Of a DNA stretch of 20,854 nucleotides, positions 11,631 through 20,854 are shown piece after piece. Made by a program: the position numbers and the translations under genes. Below the pieces are notes generated by a model. That model saw nothing but the letters and a program-made list of their open reading frames with translations, was not told the DNA's origin and made no database searches. Position 1 is the stretch's first letter; each line of letters begins with the position of its first letter. This DNA is from a virus. The stretch spans positions 1-20,854 of the IMG/VR virus record IMGVR_UViG_3300030108_001368, one strand, 5' to 3'.

Positions 11631-12815
11631 ATGGCTAACACAGTACGCATAAAAAGATCTACAGGATCTTCAGCACCAACAAGCCTTGCAAATGCTGAGT
11701 TAGCTTTTGCTGAAGGCAGTAAAAAACTCTTTATCGGTATTGGAACGGGAGGAGCGGGAGGATCTGCTACAACTATTGAAGCAATAGCTGGAACTGGTAG
11801 CTTTTTTGATAAAGATACAGTAAGAAGTGCTAATGCTGTTTTATCTGGGCCTACAACAGGAAGTGATGCTGCACCTACATTTAGAGCTTTAGTAGCTGCT
11901 GATATTCCTTCATTAGCTCATACAAAAATAAGTGATTTTGATACTGGCGTACAGGCAAATAGATTAGACCAGATGGCTGCACCAACAGGTTCAGTTTCAT
12001 TAAACAGTCAAACAATTACAAACTTAGCTGACCCCGTAAATAGCTCTGATGCAGCTACAAAGTCTTTTGTTGAGGCTACTGCACAAGGTTTAGATGTTAA
12101 AGATTCTTGCGTAGCAGCTACTACAGCAAACATAACAATATCTACTGCACTAAATAATGGAGATACCTTAGATGGTGTATCTCTCTCTACTAATGATCGT
12201 GTTCTTGTTAAAGACCAATCTACTGCTTCAGAAAATGGTATTTATGTTGTAGGTGCAAGTCCAGCTAGAGCAGACGATTTAGCTACTGGTGCTGACGCTG
12301 CTGGATTTTTCACTTTTGTTGAGCAGGGAACTGTAAACGCTGACAATGGCTTTGTCTGTACGAGTAATAAAGGATCAGCGGTTGTGGGGAGTAATAACCT
12401 TACTATTGCTCAGTTTTCTGGTGCTGGTCAAATTACGGCTGGAGATGGCCTAGATAAATCAGGTAATACACTTTCACTTGATTTAAAATCCAACGGTGGA
12501 CTTGTTATTGAATCTACTGAATTAGCTATAGATCTTGCTGCTAGTTCTATTACAGGAACATTGCCTGTTACTAAACTTACAAGTTTGACATCTACTGTGA
12601 GTGAGTTGAACGTCTTAGACGGAATAACAGCTACCACTACAGAACTAAACCTGATGGATGGTGATACTTCAGCTACATCAACGACTTTAGCAGCAGCAGA
12701 TAGATTTGTTTGTAATGACGCTGGTACTATGAAACAAGTGGCTTTAAGCGATCTAGTTACATTTTTAGAAGATGAAAGTGCATCCAGCTTCAATATAGAT
12801 GGTGGATCATATTAA
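11631..12815 (+). CDS. Repeat-rich tail fibre protein
   Basis: A 394-aa fibre. The N-terminal ~36 residues (VRIKRSTGSSAPTSLANAEL ... KKLFIG) resemble those of the next gene ([16 protein letters not shown]...GELAI), suggesting a common attachment domain. The middle has LAHTKISDFDTGVQANRLDQ and the segment AATKSFVEATAQGLDVKDSC, which is very common in marine phage fibres. A ~70-residue bead with NDRVLVKDQSTASENGIYVV follows. Near the C-terminus, tandem SELNVLDGITATT and TELNLMDGDTSATS repeats occur. No S74 domain or enzyme motif is visible. GGAGG at 11614-11618 is the probable, slightly distant, ribosome binding site. Confidence 0.74.
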   Translation: MANTVRIKRSTGSSAPTSLANAELAFAEGSKKLFIGIGTGGAGGSATTIEAIAGTGSFFDKDTVRSANAVLSGPTTGSDAAPTFRALVAADIPSLAHTKISDFDTGVQANRLDQMAAPTGSVSLNSQTITNLADPVNSSDAATKSFVEATAQGLDVKDSCVAATTANITISTALNNGDTLDGVSLSTNDRVLVKDQSTASENGIYVVGASPARADDLATGADAAGFFTFVEQGTVNADNGFVCTSNKGSAVVGSNNLTIAQFSGAGQITAGDGLDKSGNTLSLDLKSNGGLVIESTELAIDLAASSITGTLPVTKLTSLTSTVSELNVLDGITATTTELNLMDGDTSATSTTLAAADRFVCNDAGTMKQVALSDLVTFLEDESASSFNIDGGSY

Positions 12816-12826
12816 ATCTAGCTATT

Positions 12827-12832
12827 AGGAGG
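12827..12832 (+). promoter_or_regulatory. Strong Shine-Dalgarno of the collagen-like fibre
   Basis: AGGAGG eight bases upstream of the ATG at 12841. This is one of the few full-consensus ribosome binding sites in the window, where many genes have weak or no visible sites. It suggests high translation of the collagen-like fibre. Confidence 0.6.
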
Positions 12833-12840
12833 CAAGGCCA

Positions 12841-14697
12841 ATGGCTAACGAAATTCGACTTAAAAGAGGATCTGGTAGCGACCCAGGAGCTAGTGATTTA
12901 GTTACTGGTGAATTAGCAATAAGAACAGATAATGGTAAATTATTTACAAAAAAAGATGATGGTTCTGTAGCTGAAATATCAGGAGAAATAAATATTGTAG
13001 AAGATACAACTCCTCAACTTGGAGGGGACTTAGATATGAACTCCAAGTTTATATCTAGTGGTATTTTAGGTGTAAAAAATACAGGTTCACAATCTGAATT
13101 ACGTCTTTATTGTGAAGTTAACAATGCTCATTATGCAGGTATAAAAGCACCAGCCCATGCAAATTATTCAGGTAATTTAGTATTTACCTTGCCCTCTGGT
13201 TATGGGTCAAGTGGTCAATTTTTAAAATCTGACGGATCTGGTGGTACATCTTGGGATACTGCTAGTGGACCAACAGGACCAACAGGACCTACTGGCCCCA
13301 CAGGTCCAACTGGCCCAACTGGTCCTACTGGACCTGGTGGCCCTGCTGCAACTATAGCTGTAGGAAACACTACTACTGGCAACGCTGGAACCAGTGCTTC
13401 AGTAAGTAATTCTGGATCGTCAAGTGCTGCTACATTCGATTTTACAATTCCGCAAGGTGCAACTGGACCTACTGGCCCAACTGGTCCTACAGGACCTACT
13501 GGTCCAACAGGAAGTCAAGGCCCCACAGGTAATACAGGTACAGCAGCAACGATAGCTGTTGGTAGTACAAGTACAGGTAATGCAGGTACAAACGCCTCTG
13601 TTTCTAATTCTGGATCGTCCAGTGCAGCGACATTTGACTTTACTATTCCAAGAGGTGATACAGGCTCTACTGGTCCAACTGGCCCGACAGGTCCCACAGG
13701 TCCAGATGGCCCGACAGGTCCAGAGGGTCCCCCCGGTCCAGCAGGTGGTCCTACAGGACCGACAGGTTCGCCGGGTCCTATTGGTCCAGAGGGGCCTCCG
13801 GGTCCTTCGGGTGGTCCGCCGGGTCCAACAGGTCCAGCAGGTCAAAATGGTCCAGCAGGTAGTGATGGTGCTGCTGCCACAATTGCAGTAGGTTCTACAA
13901 CAACTGGTAATGCTGGTACAAATGCTAGCGTTAGCAACTCTGGGTCTTCTTCTGCTGCTACTTTTGATTTCACAATCCCAAGAGGTGCAACTGGTCAAAC
14001 AGGACCTACAGGTCCTACGGGACCTACGGGACCTACTGGTCCAACCGGATCGACGGGACCGACGGGACCTCAAGGACCTCAAGGGCCTGTAGGATCACAA
14101 GGTAGTCAAGGGCCGCAAGGGCCGCAAGGGCCACAAGGTCCACAAGGAGATGACGGACCTCCCGGTCCTTCTGGTCCACCCGGGCCATCAGGTCCTCCCG
14201 GGTCAAGTGCTACCCATGTTACAAGTGCTACCTATGCCAATAAATATGGTGGTAGTGGTTTTAGCTATAATTTCAGATTAATATATTCAGGAAGTAGTAA
14301 TGTTTATGACTTAGTTCACGTTGGTTCTTATTTACACCTTGGAACCTCTGGTGGAAGTAGAAGTATTACTTATAATACATCTGATGAAATTCTTAAAGAA
14401 AATATAGTTGATTCTACTTATAACGCTGGTTCGTTTATAAAAAATTTAAAATTTAGAGATTATGATTGGAAAGAATCAGAAGGGGGCGCTCATGTATCGT
14501 GCGGTATTGTTGCGCAAGAAGTGGAAGCTCTTGATAGTGAATTGGTTTATCAAACTACTGATTCAATAACAGGAGAGTTAAGTCCAAGAAATTTAAACAC
14601 TATGAATTTTGCAACTATATCAGCTAAAGCCATACAAGAGTTAATTACAAAAGTAGAAACTTTAGAAGCAAAAGTAGCAACTTTAGAAGGAAGTTAA
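12841..14697 (+). CDS. Collagen-like tail fibre with S74 C-terminal chaperone
   Basis: A 618-aa fibre in five parts. Residues 1-60 form an attachment domain like that of the preceding gene. Residues ~60-140 are a beta-rich shoulder. Residues 143-455 hold four Gly-X-Y blocks (about 143-168, 206-234, 272-342, 382-455), mostly Gly-Pro-Thr early and Gly-Pro-Gln/Gly-Pro-Pro late, separated by three near-identical 37-residue modules (169-205, 235-271, 345-381) with AATIAVG...[10 protein letters not shown]. Residues ~456-510 look like a small tip. The C-terminal S74 chaperone begins at TSDEILKEN with Ser514 and Lys519, then a coiled coil ending KVATLEGS. The collagen blocks should form a triple helix nucleated by the C-terminal trimer. 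Gly-Pro-Pro triplets offer proline in the Y position, the classical hydroxylation site. The hydroxylase-like gene follows 57 bases later. Confidence 0.9.
13345..13983 (+). repeat. Three interspersed 37-residue repeat modules in the collagen fibre
   Basis: Three copies of about 111 bases each, encoding residues 169-205, 235-271 and 345-381. The protein copies differ at only a few positions, but the DNA copies differ at many synonymous sites (compare GGATCGTCAAGT, GGATCGTCCAGT and GGGTCTTCTTCT). Either duplication is old with protein-level selection, or the modules were acquired separately. The flanking Gly-X-Y tracts are themselves repetitive, so this is a likely site of length variation between related phages. 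Similar 'VG.t.TG.ag..a.V.NsG....a..dFtIP.G' modules are known between collagen repeats in other phage and bacterial surface proteins. Confidence 0.8.
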
Positions 14698-14728
14698 ATT
14701 AAAACTTTACGACTTTAGATGATGTTGT

Positions 14729-14734
14729 TACACT
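14729..14734 (+). promoter_or_regulatory. Candidate -10 element before the hydroxylase-like gene
   Basis: TTGTTACACTAA followed by an A-rich tract, ending 20 bases before the TTG start at 14755. A weak TTTACG -35 lies 17 bases upstream. The 12-mer TTGTTACACTAA is repeated exactly before the next gene at about 15364. Confidence 0.42.
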
Positions 14735-14754
14735 AAAAGAAACAAAAATATCTA

Positions 14755-15360
14755 TTGAAGCAATTTATTCAAAATCTACCAGTTTTAAATGCAACTGAAC
14801 TAAAAATAATTAATAATTACATTGATGATTTGAATTTTGTACCAAATACTGTGTTCAACGGAAATGGAACTGCAAGAGAAGACAGTAGGATTCGCACAAG
14901 CACTGGTAGTTCTATGGATGAAAATATGGCAGCCACAATAATGCTCCATGAAAAATTAAATGCTGCTTTATTGGTTTACAGAGATAAACTTCTTGAACAT
15001 GATCTTGTCTTAGATAGATACCCTCTTATAGGAGGTTGTGGTACTGAATCTTATAGAGAAGCAATACAAATATTAGAATATACAAAAGAGCAAAAATATA
15101 ACTGGCATTATGATGCTTGTACAGAGCAAAATAGTCCGTTTTACCATCGTCAAATTTCTATTGTTTTGTATTTAAAAGATGATTTCGAGGGTGGTGAAAC
15201 TGCATTTAAAATGCTGCCAAAACAAAAATTTAGACCAAAAGCAGGTCGTGGTTTATTTTTTCCATCAAATTGGTGCTTTACACATTGCTCACAGCCTGTT
15301 ATGTCAGGGAAAAAACGTGTGGCGGTTACTTGGTATTATTGTGTAGATAATTTTGCCTGA
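14755..15360 (+). CDS. 2-oxoglutarate/Fe(II) oxygenase, prolyl 4-hydroxylase-like
   Basis: A 201-aa oxygenase of the prolyl 4-hydroxylase branch, which uses 2-oxoglutarate, O2 and Fe(II) to hydroxylate a side chain. All cofactor residues are visible: the iron triad His118 and Asp120 (WHYDA) plus His177 (FTHCSQPV), and Lys187 ten residues after the distal histidine, the position that binds the 2-oxoglutarate carboxylate in animal collagen hydroxylases. The core VLYLKDDFEGGETAF and PKAGRGLFF also match. Translation probably starts at TTG 14755 with no obvious Shine-Dalgarno, behind a TACACTAA element. Its neighbour is the collagen-like fibre, making that fibre the obvious candidate substrate. 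Another virion or host protein cannot be excluded, since such enzymes occur in cyanophages without collagen fibres. Confidence 0.85.
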   Translation: MKQFIQNLPVLNATELKIINNYIDDLNFVPNTVFNGNGTAREDSRIRTSTGSSMDENMAATIMLHEKLNAALLVYRDKLLEHDLVLDRYPLIGGCGTESYREAIQILEYTKEQKYNWHYDACTEQNSPFYHRQISIVLYLKDDFEGGETAFKMLPKQKFRPKAGRGLFFPSNWCFTHCSQPVMSGKKRVAVTWYYCVDNFA

Positions 15361-15366
15361 TATTGT

Positions 15367-15372
15367 TACACT
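15367..15372 (+). promoter_or_regulatory. Candidate -10 element before the coiled-coil/zinc-ribbon gene
   Basis: TACACT in TTGTTACACTAAGAAAAAC, ending 20 bases before the ATG at 15393. It is the best-conserved match to the element at 14729 and also resembles that at 2449. No -35 box is evident. Confidence 0.42.
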
Positions 15373-15392
15373 AAGAAAAACAAACAAAAATT

Positions 15393-15563
15393 ATGGCACG
15401 AAAAACTAACGAGGAGCTAAATCAAGAACTTCTAGCAATCGAAAATAAATTCAATGAAAATGTACAAGAAAATAGACAATTACAAGATAGAGCTATAGCC
15501 ATAAATGCAATTTTACAAGAAAGAGCAGAGGCAGAAAACGAAAAAAAGTCTTCTGCGAAATAA
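15393..15563 (+). CDS. Small coiled-coil protein, zero-frame product
   Basis: A 56-aa protein with a regular helical, highly charged sequence (NEELNQELLAIENKFNENVQ, then LQDRAIAINAILQERAEAEN) that should form a coiled coil. It ends at TAA 15561. Function unknown. The last codons are GAA AAA AAG TCT TCT GCG AAA TAA, containing A AAA AAG in the correct phase for -1 slippage. An AGAGG lies 10 bases upstream of the heptamer. Slippage would replace the last four residues by a 42-residue zinc-ribbon tail. A coiled coil plus metal-binding tail could serve in protein or nucleic acid binding; this is inference only. Confidence 0.6.
   Translation: MARKTNEELNQELLAIENKFNENVQENRQLQDRAIAINAILQERAEAENEKKSSAK
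15542..15548 (+). promoter_or_regulatory. Candidate -1 ribosomal frameshift site A AAA AAG
   Basis: The slippery heptamer is in phase with the ATG at 15393. An AGAGG (15527-15531) is spaced 10 bases upstream, matching the stimulatory Shine-Dalgarno spacing of the bacterial dnaX frameshift site. A downstream structure is weak: GCAG...CTGC about 23 bases downstream is the best seen. Confidence 0.5.
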
Positions 15564-15676
15564 TAGAAAAGCAGTGTAGATGCTGCGGTAAAGTGTTTTC
15601 TACCACAGAACAAAGAAGAAAGTATTGTTCTAACGCTTGTAAAACAAGGTTTTATCGTAGAAAGCTGGCTACTTAG
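15548..15676 (+). CDS. Zinc-ribbon ORF, probable -1 frameshift extension
   Basis: An open frame lacking any ATG, GTG or TTG after its upstream stop, encoding a compact zinc ribbon: CRCCGKVF followed by RRKYCSNACKTRFYRRK. The cysteines form CX2C and CX3C pairs 13 residues apart, and the basic tail suits nucleic acid binding. It is in the -1 frame relative to the coiled-coil ORF and is entered exactly by slippage at A AAA AAG (15542-15548), giving a 94-residue fusion. The only alternative initiation would be at ATA codons (15560 or 15563), which is rare. The metal-binding motif is clear; how it is translated is inference. Confidence 0.55.
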   Translation, partial: VFCEIIEKQCRCCGKVFSTTEQRRKYCSNACKTRFYRRKLAT

Positions 15677-15738
15677 TTTCGGTAGTCATTTGCCTTGTCA
15701 TTAAACTCATAGTGACGTATAAAGGTGACAAGGCTACA

Positions 15739-16029
15739 ATGAGTAGTAACACAAGCACACTTGTAAATGAAAGTGCTTTAATTATTGCAAATTTAATCAT
15801 GTTTCAAAAGATTGCTAATGTTTTAAGTATTGTTTCTTTTATCATGGTAGCTTCCATGAGCGGTGGAGCGTACTTCGGTTACAAGTATGTAACGAGTGAG
15901 AATTTTAAGTCTCAGGTAATGAAAGAAATAATGGGTAACGTATCTGGGCTGATGCCGAAGGTATTAGATAAAGGTCTACCTGACGTAACGGGGCCATCTA
16001 TTCCTACTAAATCTCTCCCTAAACTCTAA
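15739..16029 (+). CDS. Small membrane protein, function unknown
   Basis: A 96-aa protein with one clear transmembrane helix (about residues 26-50, covering IANVLSIVSFIMVASMSGGA), a short polar N-terminus and a C-terminal tail with GLPDVTGPSIPTKSLPKL. It is the first of four tightly packed genes, three of them apparently membrane proteins. The ATG at 15739 with AAGG upstream is preferred; a GTG at 15712 would add nine residues. Small membrane proteins near phage tail modules include holins, but no endolysin lies nearby and there is no holin signature, so function is open. Confidence 0.55.
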   Translation: MSSNTSTLVNESALIIANLIMFQKIANVLSIVSFIMVASMSGGAYFGYKYVTSENFKSQVMKEIMGNVSGLMPKVLDKGLPDVTGPSIPTKSLPKL

Positions 16030-16035
16030 GCCTAT

Positions 16036-16578
16036 ATGAATAGCAATATCATCAAAGGAGTATCAATAGGACTTGGAACTGTCTTTGTTGCCTCCAACTT
16101 TTATACAATCAACCTTTTAAGTAAGAAGCCAAACTTACCAATTTTTGATTTGCCTGTTAGCAAATATTCTACCTACGAGATTGAAGCTGATAAAGATAGC
16201 TATAAGATAAGACACAGGATGCACGACCCAAGAATTATTGCTTCTATAGAAAATACAAGAAAGCCAGCAGGATTCTTAGGTGCTAGTAAGTCATACGTTA
16301 CTAAAGAAACTCAAAGGATAGCTGGTGAAAAGGATGTAACTATTGTCAATAATGGTGAGCTTACAGCAAAACAAATAGCTTGCATAAAAGAAAGAGCAAA
16401 AGGAGAATCTACGGGACAGCTTATTGGAACGTCAGTAGCCACTGGAACAGGTTTATCTAGCTCATTAGCTAATGTTCCTATCGTTGGTTGGTTTTTATCT
16501 GGCTTTGCTACAAATCAAGCAAGGAGAGAAGGTGGTAAGATCGGGGCAGATATGGCATCTGATTTTAACGACTGTTAA
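16036..16578 (+). CDS. Membrane-anchored protein with glycine-rich C-terminal segment
   Basis: A 180-aa protein with an N-terminal membrane helix (IIKGVSIGLGTVFVASNFY), a polar middle (about 25-125), and a second hydrophobic Gly/Ala/Ser stretch (about 126-165, with GQLIGTSVATGTGLSSSLA and PIVGWFLSGFA). That stretch resembles glycine-zipper membrane segments. Cys115 and Cys180 are the only cysteines. It begins six bases after the previous stop and precedes the zinc-ribbon gene by two bases, so the four genes are probably one transcript. I do not recognise a named family; I have an impression of similar proteins in marine cyanophages. Confidence 0.55.
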   Translation: MNSNIIKGVSIGLGTVFVASNFYTINLLSKKPNLPIFDLPVSKYSTYEIEADKDSYKIRHRMHDPRIIASIENTRKPAGFLGASKSYVTKETQRIAGEKDVTIVNNGELTAKQIACIKERAKGESTGQLIGTSVATGTGLSSSLANVPIVGWFLSGFATNQARREGGKIGADMASDFNDC

Positions 16579-16580
16579 TT

Positions 16581-16742
16581 ATGAAATGTTATTGGTGCGA
16601 TACCGAATTAATAATAGGTGGCGATATTGATATTGAAGATGGAATGAATGGCTATCCTGAGTTTTCAGTGATGACTAATTTATCCTGCCCTAAATGCTTT
16701 TCTGAAGTGGAAGTATTAAAGAAAAGAGATGCCTACGATTAA
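16581..16742 (+). CDS. 53-aa zinc-ribbon protein (MKCYWCDTEL type)
   Basis: A very small protein with two cysteine pairs: CYWC at residues 3-6 and CPKC at 36-39. The order is MKCYWCDTELIIGGD, an acidic middle, then VMTNLSCPKCFSEVEVL. Proteins with this opening and size are, as I recall, common in marine cyanophages, which supports the host guess. Function unknown; zinc binding is likely from the CX2C pairs. It starts two bases after the upstream stop and overlaps the next gene by 14 bases. Too short for standard length cut-offs, but composition and motif make it convincing. Confidence 0.7.
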   Translation: MKCYWCDTELIIGGDIDIEDGMNGYPEFSVMTNLSCPKCFSEVEVLKKRDAYD

Positions 16743-17382
16743 AGTTCCTGAGATAAAAATACCAAAAATAAATATACCAGAAACACCTTTTATACCTGAG
16801 ACTGTATTGGTAGGAGAGAACCCTGCGTGTGATTTAACTAATAGAGATATAGAAGTATCAGAAAATCCAACTATAATTTTTCATGGCAGAAAGGCTTATG
16901 CTACTTGTCCAAATGGTCAGGCAATCGCTGGCACACAACCAATAAAAGTACAACCAGAGGCTAAAACATTTAGACCTATTGTTTATGATGCACAAGACAC
17001 TATAGAAACAGAAGGTACATATAATTTTCAACCAAAAGCAAGTGGAGTAAATATTAATTTAGGACAGAAAGAAGAGGAAGAAGAGATTGAGTTAGTACCC
17101 TGTCCACCTAAAAATGCACCATATAGACCTGGGGATTGGCGTAATGAGCTTAGATTAGAAAGGCTGGTAAAATATGAACGTGGGCTTTTGGAGGGTTCCT
17201 GTGATGCAATCTGGGAAGAAGTACCGTTTGTTGACCAGTACATACCGACAGCTAGTGTTGTTGTATCTACTGCTGTTATTGCTTCTGTTGCTGCCACTAC
17301 TCCATTACTACTTAATATTGTCAAACCCTTAGTTAAAAATATTATAAAAAAACTTACAAAAAAGAAAAAAGATGTAAAATGA
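16729..17382 (+). CDS. Tail-anchored membrane protein with IxIP repeats
   Basis: A 217-aa protein. The N-terminus has short repeats of IxxP type (IKVPEIKIPKINIPETPFIP). The middle is polar with four cysteines (NPACD, YATCPNG, LVPCPPK, EGSCDAIW) and an acidic EEEEE run. The C-terminus is one membrane helix (about 175-195, ASVVVSTAVIASVAATTPLL) followed by a strongly basic tail (KNIIKKLTKKKKDVK). A C-terminal anchor with a basic cytoplasmic tail suggests the bulk faces out of the cytoplasm, where cysteines could pair. Its start lies within the zinc-ribbon gene, and it is the last gene before the convergent hairpin at 17455. Function unknown. Confidence 0.58.
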   Translation: MPTIKVPEIKIPKINIPETPFIPETVLVGENPACDLTNRDIEVSENPTIIFHGRKAYATCPNGQAIAGTQPIKVQPEAKTFRPIVYDAQDTIETEGTYNFQPKASGVNINLGQKEEEEEIELVPCPPKNAPYRPGDWRNELRLERLVKYERGLLEGSCDAIWEEVPFVDQYIPTASVVVSTAVIASVAATTPLLLNIVKPLVKNIIKKLTKKKKDVK

Positions 17383-17444
17383 TATTAGGCAACCAGACTC
17401 ATTACCAAGTTGTTAACTCAACCTCTGCTCTGTTGAAGCGTCAG

Positions 17445-17490
17445 TTGTCTTTTTAGACAAGTGGATACCCGTAGCTTGTCTATTTTAATT
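17445..17490 (+). terminator. Hairpin/terminator between convergent blocks
   Basis: AGACAAG (17455-17461) pairs with CTTGTCT (17475-17481) across a 13-base loop, followed by ATTTTAATTT, a weak intrinsic terminator for the + strand. A second TTGTCT at 17445-17450 can pair with the same AGACAA across a TTTT loop, so two hairpins compete. The second arm overlaps the stop of the minus-strand gene. Confidence 0.5.
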
Positions 17491-18088
17491 TGTGAGTATG
17501 TGGGATAACTTGATTTGGAACGCTGGTCAGTACAACATTTCTACAACTAACAGCATCATCTCCTACGAATTTAACACCTAGTTTAAGTTGTTCGGCACAT
17601 ATTTTTAGACGGTTAAGATTGACTTCTAGTTTTTTAGCATCAAGCATAAACTCCTGATACTTTCTATATGTTTGGGCTGCCTTTATGCACTCATCATCAA
17701 ATCGTTTTCCTAATGGTACTTGAATACTAATAGTCGCTCCATAAGAAAAGTTATGGTTTATCTGATCTAACCTTTCCTGTTCTGCTATATAAAGTATTTC
17801 ACCAGGATTTGTTAGCTGACCAGTTTCACTATCTTTTGCTTGGTTATATATATTTGTTCTTTGTACTGTGCTTCTTGGGGTGTTGTAATATTCTCCTTTT
17901 GTTATAAAGGGATTAAAACTAAGAGTAGGTGTTTGGCATTGAATACCATTGCTATACCTATGAGTTGGGAAAGATCCACTTATACTTTGAAAGCCTTGAT
18001 TAACTATTGTGGACTGTGTACTGGATTGAGGGTTACTGATAGTGGTCTCTGCATAAACAGGACTAGCAAACAGTAGTCCTATTGAAAT
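17480..18088 (-). CDS. Putative exported protein, unusual start
   Basis: Last gene of a four-gene minus-strand block. The recognisable product starts with a signal-peptide-like NLISIGLLFASPVYA, probably cleaved before ETTIS. Then comes a Ser/Thr/Gln-rich part (ISNPQSSTQSTIVNQGFQS) and a helical C-terminal half with YGATISIQVPLGKRFDDECI and KKLEVNLNRLKICAEQLKLG. The frame stays open upstream to an ATG at 18247, but that part is read through the preceding gene and looks like an out-of-frame shadow rich in Arg, Asn and Cys. No ATG, GTG or TTG lies near the signal peptide. ATT at 18088-18086, overlapping the previous stop by 10 bases, is the most plausible start, probably by coupling. Function unknown. 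Confidence 0.5.
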   Translation of the reverse strand: MSIGLLFASPVYAETTISNPQSSTQSTIVNQGFQSISGSFPTHRYSNGIQCQTPTLSFNPFITKGEYYNTPRSTVQRTNIYNQAKDSETGQLTNPGEILYIAEQERLDQINHNFSYGATISIQVPLGKRFDDECIKAAQTYRKYQEFMLDAKKLEVNLNRLKICAEQLKLGVKFVGDDAVSCRNVVLTSVPNQVIPHTHKLK

Positions 18089-18510
18089 AAGGTTGTAGAA
18101 GTTTGTGTTGTTTCTATTGTTTGTGTTCGATTTATTATGCTTACTGCATCTAAACCAGGAGCCATAAAGTTTTCCGTTAGAGAAAAGGCATCTCCTTCTG
18201 AAACGATCTCCCACTGTGGTTTGCTTGTTAAGTTTGGTGTTATCCATTCAAAATTAACTGCACCTGCATTACCTGTATTCTGACTTGTTGTATAAGTGGC
18301 TTCAGGAGAGATAACAGTACCATCTTTAATTTTGATATTAGATCCTGTAACTGAGTACGCATAACCTGAGTTATAGTTTTCAGTAATAATAACTTCATCT
18401 ATTTTTGAAATACTCCTTGAGTTGCTTTGAATCTGGTTCGCACCAAATCTAGGAGTCTCAGCAAAAGCATTAGGAATAAAAACAACAAGTAGACATAGCC
18501 ACCATTTCAT
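18079..18510 (-). CDS. Exported protein, paralogue of the upstream gene
   Basis: A 143-aa protein with a clear signal peptide (MKWWLCLLVVFIPNAFA, cleavage before ETP). The mature part is Ser/Thr/Asn-rich with predicted beta strands. Its segment GDAFSLTENFMAP aligns with GDAFSVSESYIAA in the gene upstream, and each is followed by a short hydrophobic or Thr/Ser-rich region, so the two look like distant paralogues. The ATG overlaps the previous TAA by one base. No enzyme motif or anchor is visible. It may be released or displayed on the host envelope. Confidence 0.6.
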   Translation of the reverse strand: MKWWLCLLVVFIPNAFAETPRFGANQIQSNSRSISKIDEVIITENYNSGYAYSVTGSNIKIKDGTVISPEATYTTSQNTGNAGAVNFEWITPNLTSKPQWEIVSEGDAFSLTENFMAPGLDAVSIINRTQTIETTQTSTTLFQ

Positions 18511-19037
18511 TAATCGAGGCCAAGAGTAATAGTTGATTGGAGCGTTGCAGTAGTACCAGCACCCATATCAGCAAGGTTGACTGTTAGTGCTTGTCCGCTA
18601 TCCATTGTAATTGCTACAGAACCAGGATCACCGCCAGACACTACTGTGTTTTTACCAAGGAGAGGCAGTGATGGAACTGCCCCATTTGTTACTGTGGCAG
18701 ATAGTAAGCTAGGTACTGCGTCTGCTGCAATGTATGATTCACTAACTGAGAAGGCATCACCTGTATTTACAATATTGAAGCTAGTGTCGTAATCAATAGT
18801 TGGAACACCACTAGCAATACCATTATCAGATAAATCAAGAGAACCTATTTGACCTGCTACTGTATTAGCTTTTGGTGTTACGTTCGTACCAGCAACACTT
18901 ATAGCCCCTGCAATACGCTCGCTAGTGGCTGATGCTCCCAGAGTAGATACTGAGGCTACCGATTGGATTGAATGTGTTACGTCTGCAAAACTAGCTGTTG
19001 GAAATGCTAGTAAAAGCAAAGGAAGAAATTTTTTCAT
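18510..19037 (-). CDS. Exported beta-rich protein
   Basis: A 175-aa protein with a textbook signal peptide (MKKFLPLLLLAFPTASFA, cleavage before DVTHS). The mature region is poor in charged residues and rich in Ser, Thr, Ala, Val and Gly, with repeated short strands (SVASVSTLGAS, IAGAISVAGTNV, GSVAITMDSGQALTVNL), as expected of an extracellular beta-structured protein. It shares the GDAFSVSESYIAA motif with the next gene. The start overlaps the upstream gene's stop through ATGA. I do not recognise a named family. Several fibre- or adhesin-like proteins have similar composition, but no function is proposed. Confidence 0.62.
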   Translation of the reverse strand: MKKFLPLLLLAFPTASFADVTHSIQSVASVSTLGASATSERIAGAISVAGTNVTPKANTVAGQIGSLDLSDNGIASGVPTIDYDTSFNIVNTGDAFSVSESYIAADAVPSLLSATVTNGAVPSLPLLGKNTVVSGGDPGSVAITMDSGQALTVNLADMGAGTTATLQSTITLGLD

Positions 19038-19462
19038 TTTTTGGATGAATTAGGGTCAACTTTGATAACGTCAGGTTTAGATGTGACGATCTCAAGTGGT
19101 TGCTTTATTATTATAGTCGAAACGCTACCAGAAGAGTTACCATTACTACTATTTCCATCTTCTTTCTTTTTCTTCTTAGCTCCTTGTGCTGCGTTAACCG
19201 AAATGCCTAAACCTCCAAGAATGTTACCGAGAAGTCCAGCAGCGAATGTACTATCCACTCTGGGTTGATCTGGAATATCCAAGCCAAATAATCTGTTAGG
19301 TAGTTTTATGTATCCTAAAGAAAGCACTAATAGACACCAAGCCAGAATAAACGCTTGGGCAATAGTAGAAATTAAAAAGGTAATTTTTTCTTGATAATCA
19401 GGCTTTTCATCTTCGATTGGATCTTTTGTTAATACAGGTTCTTTTTTTTCTTGTTCTGCCAT
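19034..19462 (-). CDS. Single-pass membrane protein heading the exported-protein block
   Basis: A 142-aa protein, first of the minus-strand block. A charged N-terminus (AEQEKKEPVLTKDPIEDEKP) precedes one membrane helix (about residues 29-51, FLISTIAQAFILAWCLLVLS). Next are YIKLPNRLFGLDIPDQPRV, a short glycine-rich segment (AAGLLGNILGGLGIS), a KKKKK run and a Ser/Asn-rich tail ending in KVDPNSSKK. Coupling (ATGA) to two signal-peptide proteins suggests it works with them at the membrane, perhaps in their placement. A holin-like role is possible but unsupported. Function unknown. Confidence 0.55.
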   Translation of the reverse strand: MAEQEKKEPVLTKDPIEDEKPDYQEKITFLISTIAQAFILAWCLLVLSLGYIKLPNRLFGLDIPDQPRVDSTFAAGLLGNILGGLGISVNAAQGAKKKKKEDGNSSNGNSSGSVSTIIIKQPLEIVTSKPDVIKVDPNSSKK

Positions 19463-19476
19463 AGAAGCGTAGTATC

Positions 19477-19505
19477 TTGTCTAATACTAGCAATTTAGCT
19501 ATGTT
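19477..19505 (+). promoter_or_regulatory. Candidate promoter for the lipoprotein-like gene
   Basis: TTGTCT at 19477-19482 and TATGTT at 19500-19505, separated by 17 bases, 24 bases before the ATG at 19530. It lies in the only divergent intergenic stretch of the window, so both flanking blocks probably start transcription here. The minus-strand promoter is not clear. Confidence 0.4.
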
Positions 19506-19529
19506 TGGAAAGTAACACATAATTATGTC

Positions 19530-19691
19530 ATGTATAAAATTTTAAAACCTATATTATTAACGTTTTTGACCACGACTGCCTGTAAAAGATTAATTGTTGA
19601 TCTGTTACGAGCGATTTGTAAACAGACATCTAACAACCTTGATGATAGAGCAGTTGATGTTCTTGAAAAACAACTCTTTCCTACACCATGA
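19530..19691 (+). CDS. Small putative lipoprotein
   Basis: A 53-aa protein: MYKILKPILLTFLTTTACKR, then VDLLRAICKQTSNNLDDRAV and a short end. The hydrophobic N-terminus ends at a cysteine (Cys18) in a lipobox-like setting (TTAC), although the -3 residue is Thr and so non-ideal. A short lipoprotein of this size could be an outer-membrane anchor such as an o-spanin, but no matching inner-membrane partner is adjacent, so that is speculation. The stop overlaps the next ATG (ATGA). It is missed by common length cut-offs. Confidence 0.5.
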   Translation: MYKILKPILLTFLTTTACKRLIVDLLRAICKQTSNNLDDRAVDVLEKQLFPTP

Positions 19692-19978
19692 AAATCACTA
19701 AATTCCTTAACATTGATATAGAACCAGCACCACCAGAGTTGGAACTAGAAGTTGAAATGCAATGTAGAGAACTTATGAAGTCCAATGATTTAAATGGACT
19801 AAAAAGATATTGCACACACCTTGTAAGAAAAAAATTTGACCAAGATATTTTTATGGCTTCATTGTTAAATAGATTGATTGAATTAGAAGCTAATCGTGTT
19901 GTAACAGAGATGAGAAAAAATAAACCAACTAATCCTTTAAAAAAGTTTTTTCGTATTGGTCAAGCTCGTAATCAGTAA
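19688..19978 (+). CDS. Hypothetical 96-aa helical protein
   Basis: Opens MKITKFLNIDIEPAPPELEL and continues with amphipathic helices (MQCRELMKSNDLNGLKRYC, FMASLLNRLIELEANRVV), ending in a basic tail (NPLKKFFRIGQARNQ). No known motif; a similar type of small protein seems familiar from cyanophages, without assigned function. Translationally coupled to the lipoprotein-like gene. Its last 50 bases overlap the convergent gene on the other strand, which is unusual; codon content looks natural in both. Confidence 0.52.
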   Translation: MKITKFLNIDIEPAPPELELEVEMQCRELMKSNDLNGLKRYCTHLVRKKFDQDIFMASLLNRLIELEANRVVTEMRKNKPTNPLKKFFRIGQARNQ

Positions 19979-20207
19979 AATCAGCCACAAATAATTTATC
20001 AATTTTATCAACTTCATAATTAAATTTAAGAACAGCAGTTCTTATGTGTTCTTTAACCCAATCACCTTTAGAAACGACTTGAGCTTTACCTCTCTCATTA
20101 ATAAAAATGTAATGGTCATATCCTTTCAATTGAACTTCCAATAAATTTTTTTCTAAATTATCACGTCTAATTTTTTTCAATCTTGCTAGTTTTTGACGAT
20201 CTTTCAT
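19929..20207 (-). CDS. Hypothetical basic 92-aa protein
   Basis: Starts MKDRQKLARLKKIRRDNLEK, a very basic helix that suggests nucleic acid contact, then YDHYIFINERGKAQVVSKGD and an acidic C-terminus (DKLFVADFTDYELDQYEKTF). It follows the 20204-20488 gene with an ATGA overlap. I recognise no family. The pair may be regulators, but this is inferred only from size and charge. Its 3' end overlaps the plus-strand gene by 50 bases. Confidence 0.5.
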   Translation of the reverse strand: MKDRQKLARLKKIRRDNLEKNLLEVQLKGYDHYIFINERGKAQVVSKGDWVKEHIRTAVLKFNYEVDKIDKLFVADFTDYELDQYEKTFLKD

Positions 20208-20488
20208 TTTTTTTTAATTGAATTAAGAATTTTAGATAAGGCTCGACCTTGTAATCGGTTTTGAATTGCTTTTTTCCAATTTTCCTGGTCTTTTTTTAAT
20301 GCTTCATCATACACTTCTTTATCAATCTTGTCTTCTAAAAATCTATAAACAACATCTCTTATCCAAGAAGTAGGCTTAACTTTTAATTTATTACGAATAT
20401 AGTCATCAAATAATTCACCTCTATGTATATCTATAAGAACATGGTAATATTTTTTGTTTCCATGAGGTTTTTTGCCAGATTCAGCCAT
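20204..20488 (-). CDS. Hypothetical 94-aa protein, possible ribbon-helix-helix fold
   Basis: After a basic N-terminus comes YYHVLIDIHRGELFDDYIRN, then a helix-turn-helix-like part with KPTSWIRDVVYRFLEDKIDK, and a basic helical tail. A beta strand followed by two helices with 'tswIRdvvyrfLe' resembles ribbon-helix-helix DNA-binding proteins, which are about this size, but the match is weak. If correct, the eight-copy octamer cluster about 180 bases upstream would be a candidate target. It is coupled to the downstream 92-aa gene. Confidence 0.5.
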   Translation of the reverse strand: MAESGKKPHGNKKYYHVLIDIHRGELFDDYIRNKLKVKPTSWIRDVVYRFLEDKIDKEVYDEALKKDQENWKKAIQNRLQGRALSKILNSIKKK

Positions 20489-20527
20489 TAATATCTTTTT
20501 AATTTATAGTATCACATTATCATTGTA

Positions 20528-20614
20528 TTAACTTTTTGTTTTCCAAGCTTTAATTAATCGTTCCAATTCAGCAATTCGTTGTTTTGCAGCCTCGATTCTT
20601 TGTTGTTTTGTCAT
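20528..20614 (-). CDS. 28-aa helical peptide
   Basis: A tiny ORF, MTKQQRIEAAKQRIAELERL followed by IKAWKTKS, with a regular amphipathic helix pattern. Peptides of this type (MTKQQRIEAA.QRI.ELE.LI..W) are familiar to me from marine cyanobacteria and their phages, which makes it more likely real than its length suggests. It stands alone between the minus-strand pair and the octamer cluster. Function unknown. Confidence 0.42.
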   Translation of the reverse strand: MTKQQRIEAAKQRIAELERLIKAWKTKS

Positions 20615-20669
20615 AGATTCTGATTGTATTGATGTTAATTAGTGTTTTCTCTGGGGAGAGTGGCTGAAA

Positions 20670-20839
20670 TTGTCCCATTCTTTATAATCACGCTCCACAA
20701 CATTGATTTGGTATGGGACAAAGGTATGGGACAAGTAAAGTTGTCCTACGCTCCAAAATCAATGGGACAATCTATCTTGTCTCACACAGTTGTCCCACTG
20801 AAATCTATTGGTACGACTACGATTCCTCCAATGGGACAA
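20670..20839. repeat. Dyad-symmetric cluster of eight TGGGACAA octamers
   Basis: Six perfect copies (20670 -, 20714 +, 20727 +, 20763 +, 20790 -, 20832 +) and two single-mismatch copies (20741 -, 20777 -). Orientation order (-,+,+,-,+,-,-,+) is its own mirror image. Three of the four pairs share the exact centre 20755.5; the outer pair is off by one base. The sequence between copies is not palindromic. It may be a multi-protein binding site such as an operator, replication origin or recombination/partition site. Confidence 0.72.
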
Positions 20840-20854
20840 GATATGCACCCTCTC
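20713..20854 (+). CDS. Partial ORF running off the window end
   Basis: An open frame of 47 codons from ATG 20713 (after a stop at 20704) to the window end, reading MGQRYGTSKVVLRSKINGTI, then YLVSHSCPTEIYWYDYDSSN and GTRYAPS. Base composition looks less AT-rich than the region to its left. It overlaps seven of the eight octamers, three of which are read in the same frame as Gly-Thr. Either the octamers are embedded in a gene start or the frame is fortuitous. A DNA-processing protein such as an integrase starting here would fit the context, but I see no catalytic motif in this short piece. Start has no clear Shine-Dalgarno. Confidence 0.35.
   Translation, partial: MGQRYGTSKVVLRSKINGTIYLVSHSCPTEIYWYDYDSSNGTRYAPS

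Follow-up and report, generated by a model that had tools for sequence, protein, structure and literature searches.

A probable programmed -1 ribosomal frameshift joining a putative coiled coil to a zinc finger in a family of viral genes

How can a complete zinc finger be translated from a reading frame that has no usual start codon? This question is raised by a locus in a window of 20,854 nucleotides (the whole stretch of DNA analysed here, positions 1 to 20,854 of the 25,681-base virus record IMGVR_UViG_3300030108_001368), in which the zinc-finger frame overlaps the end of a small coiled-coil-like open reading frame. The elements of the locus are the following:

15393 to 15563, plus strand: zero-frame open reading frame of 56 residues, helical and coiled-coil-like by its sequence (MARKTNEELNQELL...EKKSSAK, stop)
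15527 to 15531, plus strand: internal Shine-Dalgarno-like AGAGG, with its core GAGG (15528-15531) exactly 10 nt before the heptamer
15542 to 15548, plus strand: slippery heptamer A_AAA_AAG, in phase, with codon boundaries GA(A AAA AAG)
15548 to 15676, plus strand: -1 frame of 42 codons with a CX2C-X13-CX3C zinc finger, ending at the stop TAG 15674-15676
15561 to 15563, plus strand: zero-frame stop TAA, followed by an in-frame TAG, four codons past the heptamer

Seven consecutive A, at 15541-15547, include most of the heptamer. From 15548 the -1 frame reads VFCEIIEKQCRCCGKVFSTTEQRRKYCSNACKTRFYRRKLAT, with the zinc-ligand cysteine codons at 15575, 15584, 15626 and 15638, and the joined product has 94 residues, with the predicted junction peptide ENEKKVFCEIIEK spanning the slip site. 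No ATG, GTG or TTG is present in this frame 5' of the zinc motif, the sole GTG lying inside the motif, past the first two cysteines. The coordinates, phase, spacing and product lengths (56 and 94 residues) proposed in an earlier sequence-only reading of this DNA all proved exact when checked against the sequence. In-phase A_AAA_AAG is found twice in the 5,215 codons of the 18 main window genes. Because the heptamer is rare in these genes and is kept together with the zinc-finger frame in 64 distinct homologues, the co-occurrence of the two is, judged from sequence comparison, not due to chance.

The homologues were collected by searching viral contigs with the joined protein, which returned 80 loci, and the set was enlarged by separate searches with each half. 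In most of the 80 loci the match covers 94 residues but 281 bases, one fewer than an uninterrupted frame would take. The coiled-coil ORF, the in-phase heptamer and the -1-frame zinc finger are shared by 64 distinct viral sequences, corresponding to 35 groups below 90% DNA identity. Relatives of the coiled coil extend down to about 37-42% identity, the zinc-finger parts of the most distant members are 33-50% identical to that of the window, and the zinc cysteines are invariant in 54 sequences.

Conservation of the heptamer and of the upstream AGAGG among homologues had been suggested as a check on the frameshift, and both elements are retained. The heptamer is in phase in all 64 distinct homologues with a -1-frame zinc finger (62 AAAAAAG and 2 AAAAAAA), while the codon that provides the GAGG, codon 46, reads GAG in 31 of 32 non-redundant homologues, compared with 12% GAG in codons 2-45 (Fisher P 6e-22, a value that overstates independence, since the sequences are related). 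The second frame cannot constrain codon 46, as this codon precedes the slip, and the four changes of its third base on the tree fall in lineages that lost GAGG. In the heptamer itself, the opening A stays unchanged while codon 50 varies among GAA, GCA, GTA and ACA, and parsimony assigns zero changes to the A of codon 50 and to codon 51, versus a median of 7 at third positions. Codon 52 is AAG in 31 of the 32 non-redundant homologues, versus a background of 20%. At the seventh base of the heptamer, G is retained whether the -1 frame encodes Val, Ala or Glu there; since the next -1 codon opens with this very base, its conservation is weaker, non-independent evidence. An SD-like element lying no more than 20 nt from the gene's own start codon was found in 0 of 35 genes, and the internal GAGG is not a background feature, given that the start codons lack such an element in 35 of 35. 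The comparison indicates that the slip site is conserved beyond amino-acid needs. GAGG is absent in L059, L117, L112, L119, L132 and the divergent L183. Among these, L112, L119 and L132 show A_AAA_AAG twice in tandem, both copies in phase and spaced by 12 nt, as if the stimulator had been swapped for a second slip site.

The distribution of differences among homologues reveals which frame is read on each side of the heptamer. Before the slip, differences number 12040, 8040 and 16335 at zero-frame positions 1 to 3, with the peak at the third position, and past the zero-frame stop they number 2694, 9091 and 2619, the peak now coinciding with the third position of the -1 frame. Amino-acid identity past the zero-frame stop reaches 0.86 in the -1 frame versus 0.64 and 0.67 in the other two. 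As judged from these substitution patterns, both frames are under purifying selection. The frameshift homologues have a zero-frame stop shortly 3' of the heptamer and, in many of them, the -1 frame is itself interrupted by a stop two codons 5' of the slip. The absence of ATG, GTG and TTG upstream of the zinc motif, noticed originally in the window, also holds in 53 of 53 homologues checked. Since the -1 frame is often closed by a stop and lacks a usual start codon, the heptamer would be its near-sole entry, and the zinc-finger frame appears hardly reachable except at this point.

The comparative evidence, which shows joined frames, a conserved signal and selection on both frames, points to a gene that is very probably expressed via programmed -1 ribosomal frameshifting. 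According to this model, most ribosomes would finish the coiled-coil ORF at the zero-frame stop and release the 56-residue protein, while a fraction would pause as the 3' end of the 16S rRNA pairs with the internal GAGG. The two lysyl-tRNAs positioned on A_AAA_AAG would then slip back by one base and pair with AAA AAA, after which translation would proceed through the zinc-finger frame to yield the 94-residue coiled-coil/zinc-finger protein. That the slip occurs in this way, and that the long form is the minor product, is inferred by analogy with dnaX and IS elements. In E. coli few heptamers shift as readily as A_AAA_AAG, the dnaX site, which is aided there by a single lysine tRNA (PMC5009743).

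The likeness to E. coli dnaX (tau/gamma), on which the sequence-only reading drew, extends to the in-phase A_AAA_AAG, to the SD-like element about 10 nt upstream and to the production of two products per gene, but not to a conserved downstream hairpin. Moreover, the slip gives the shorter product in dnaX, whereas here it adds a zinc finger. In the folding test, the 60 nt beginning 3 nt past the heptamer were compared with dinucleotide shuffles and folded no better than these in most of 35 sequences; the z-scores scatter around zero and no conserved downstream hairpin was found in this set. A CTGC...GCAG stem present in the window was considered as a stimulator and rejected, as it is missing in many homologues, which have GGAG instead. 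An Rfam search of 15300-16100 returned nothing. In other bacterial frameshifts SD-like stimulators occur and hairpins are sometimes absent (PMC4066793).

Several other explanations could account for a zinc-finger frame at this position. RNA polymerase might stutter on the A run and produce mRNAs in the zinc-finger frame with no ribosomal slip, and the length of the run, A7 in most sequences, A8 in L073 and L188 and A9 in L196, lends some support to such transcriptional slippage. However, the run is just A6 in L045, L059 and L063-L065, AAG rather than AAA at codon 52 shortens it and is kept nonetheless, and the polymerase needs neither a GAGG 10 nt upstream nor a fixed codon phase, all of which makes this explanation very unlikely. 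Alternatively, the zinc finger might be started independently at an AUA (or AUU) just past the slip site. OrfB of IS911 starts at AUU, AUA codons are located 12-15 nt past the slip in most homologues, and relatives L189-L195 have stand-alone zinc-finger genes with an ATG. Yet no SD is found at a usable distance from the AUA, as the GAGG ends 28 nt upstream, the AUA lies elsewhere in the L063 group and is missing from L073, and an internal start would leave the heptamer, its phase and the GAGG unexplained; we regard it as extremely improbable.

Finally, the shift could be an artefact of sequencing or assembly, or the trace of a frameshift mutation in what was an ordinary fused gene, and one in-frame fusion does exist, in L001. 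The sequence-only reading had named a run-length error in the seven A residues as an outcome that would overturn the frameshift, and dozens of independent contigs rule it out: the shift falls at one position in 64 distinct sequences from many contigs, purifying selection acts on both frames, and L001 is in frame through a 53-nt deletion in the coiled coil with its run length unchanged. The comparative data refute this explanation, to which we give almost no credence.

Several relatives depart from the common layout. The L001 fusion, known from this single contig, may be genuine or may have arisen in assembly; the 53-nt deletion that creates it is evident by comparison with L032, which comes from the same sample. 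The coiled coil alone is represented by 14 distinct relatives, all of them without the heptamer and 9 of the 14 with GAA at codon 46, and the zinc finger was not found on 12 scanned contigs of such relatives, which are fragments. Conversely, the zinc finger alone is present with its own ATG at the seven loci L189-L195. Separate zinc-finger genes of this kind had been proposed as a possible refutation, but the coiled-coil gene was not found on these contigs, also fragments, and the frameshift stands; by sequence, the stand-alone zinc fingers show modularity rather than refute it. In L183 the cassette is joined to a much diverged coiled coil. On a weakly resolved 156-nt tree, the switch between the frameshifted and the coiled-coil-only states requires two changes. 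As relatives joined by slipping, fused, separated or deprived of the zinc finger coexist, they constitute a natural experiment on why a frameshift is kept where a fusion would suffice.

What the two products might do can be approached through their domains. The N-terminal half is a putative coiled coil, a designation that draws on its sequence pattern and on the single-sequence model of the L001 fusion, in which this half forms one long helix (pLDDT 75). The zinc finger had been described as a zinc ribbon; the CX2C...CX3C motif is indeed present, but its AlphaFold model (pLDDT 88) displays a short zinc finger, made up of a knuckle and two helices after it, with no clear ribbon. Its profile matches, to treble-clef and HNH-associated knuckles, are weak; the HNH catalytic motif is absent and the PHROG profile is matched in its zinc-knuckle part alone (positions 211-245 of 361). 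Foldseek gave no significant fold match. The function we favour, with far less confidence than we place in the frameshift, is that the helical N-terminus common to both products would form mixed oligomers, that the frameshift rate would set the number of zinc fingers per oligomer and that the basic finger would bind nucleic acid or a host protein.

It has also been considered that the zinc finger, rather than binding nucleic acid, is a host-directed inhibitor like YacG, a DNA gyrase inhibitor, which would be compatible with the frameshift. Among solved structures, the model is matched best by YacG bound to gyrase (4tma), over nearly the whole domain. Nevertheless, this similarity is weak (Foldseek E 1.4; VIA Z 2.8, rmsd 3.0 over 35 residues, 26% identity) and generic C2H2 fingers score almost equally; the Pfam YacG profile, with a best E of 0.02, is matched weakly in 12 of 54 members at E up to 1. 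A YacG-like inhibitor is, in our view, improbable. As to the gene as a whole, we tentatively propose an undescribed phage family in which the frameshift meters the zinc-finger-bearing subunits of a coiled-coil oligomer, as a device for host takeover or gene control, with the two halves being interchangeable modules, found apart, in an in-frame fusion or linked through the slip.

Most cases of frameshifting reported for phage genes concern tail chaperones, capsid or tail proteins with added domains, or mobile elements. Like the window gene, the phage tail chaperone gpG/gpGT is a small gene in which a frameshift (-1, -2 or +1) provides a fraction of the product molecules with an extra domain (PMC5009743). 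Unlike it, the window gene has no T domain and is not beside the tape measure, lying instead after tail-fibre and 2OG-oxygenase genes; furthermore, the window phage has its own G/GT-like pair (1902-2442), with a different junction and direction. OrfA/OrfAB of the IS3 family (IS911 and relatives), whose OrfA has a coiled-coil region, is similar in that a -1 slip on A-rich heptamers fuses a small protein to a second domain, but here the -1 frame encodes just a 42-residue zinc finger, with no transposase (DDE) domain and no IS features. The helical N-terminal half resembles phrog_20003, matched by coiled-coil residues 1-51 (E 1.1e-4), and the 59-residue hypothetical proteins of cyanophages P-SSP2 and P-SSP3, encoded directly after a long tail-fibre-like gene; these have neither heptamer nor zinc finger, and the BLAST match is by itself weak (E 3). 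YacG, DUF2116 and HNH-associated knuckles share the CX2C...CX3C knuckle followed by a helix, with matches that are weak or below curated cut-offs.

Window DNA from 12000 to 20854 had no match in annotated phage records, in which the joined protein retrieved just unrelated zinc knuckles at E 0.06 or worse. Among bacterial and archaeal genomes the scan produced a single zinc knuckle, on a Lachnospiraceae contig, which is no relative of the whole protein, and a search of open-access full text produced no paper on a zinc-ribbon/coiled-coil frameshift gene in phages or cyanophages. Thus, the recoding device is known and the gene family using it appears undescribed in the collections and papers searched. 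This frameshift gene recurs across many ocean virus contigs and is absent from the annotated phage records searched; gene callers would report its coiled-coil half at most and miss the zinc-finger half, because the latter has no start codon of its own. A recent frameshift predictor, PRFect, was trained on tail-chaperone genes (PMC10885494).

The window genes include a lambda-like tail module with tape measure, JAB-domain minor tail protein and J-type tail fibre. The best matches of this fibre are in Prochlorococcus phages P-HS2, MED4-184 and MED4-117 (31% identity), and relatives of the neighbour gene 16036-16578 are found in 364 phage records, every one of which bears the name of a Synechococcus or Prochlorococcus phage, a cyanophage or a marine virus. 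On account of these two sets of matches, which also suggest the host, the source is probably an uncultured marine siphovirus of picocyanobacteria. The frameshift gene sits downstream of collagen-like fibre genes and a 2OG-Fe(II) oxygenase. A 2OG-Fe(II) oxygenase is also found beside the frameshift gene in L201 (6893-7501, on the contig of L041), with the strand reversed relative to the window. On its 3' side, the frameshift gene faces a further open reading frame:

15669 to 15800, minus strand: 43-residue open reading frame with one hydrophobic stretch (MIKFAIIKALSFTSVLVLLLIVALSPLYVTMSLMTRQMTTETK), convergent with the frameshift gene

Most homologues have a comparable ORF at this position. An inverted repeat 3' of the frameshift gene was considered as an operator and dropped, since this stretch is the end of the conserved minus-strand ORF. 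The plus-strand gene listed from 15712 may have its true start at an ATG near 15799, its family match beginning at residue 31. In the tail module, a second probable frameshift would lead from a tail-chaperone G-like ORF (1902-2261) into a T-like frame, open from 2254 (KAKNDWFFLFFLATELKMTLKELTDKLTQEEFVNWIAYYELKRD...) and in the +1 (equivalent to -2) frame relative to the G-like ORF. The junction, TTTAAAAAG followed by C or T, was found in 18 of 18 sampled relatives, with GGAGG upstream of it.
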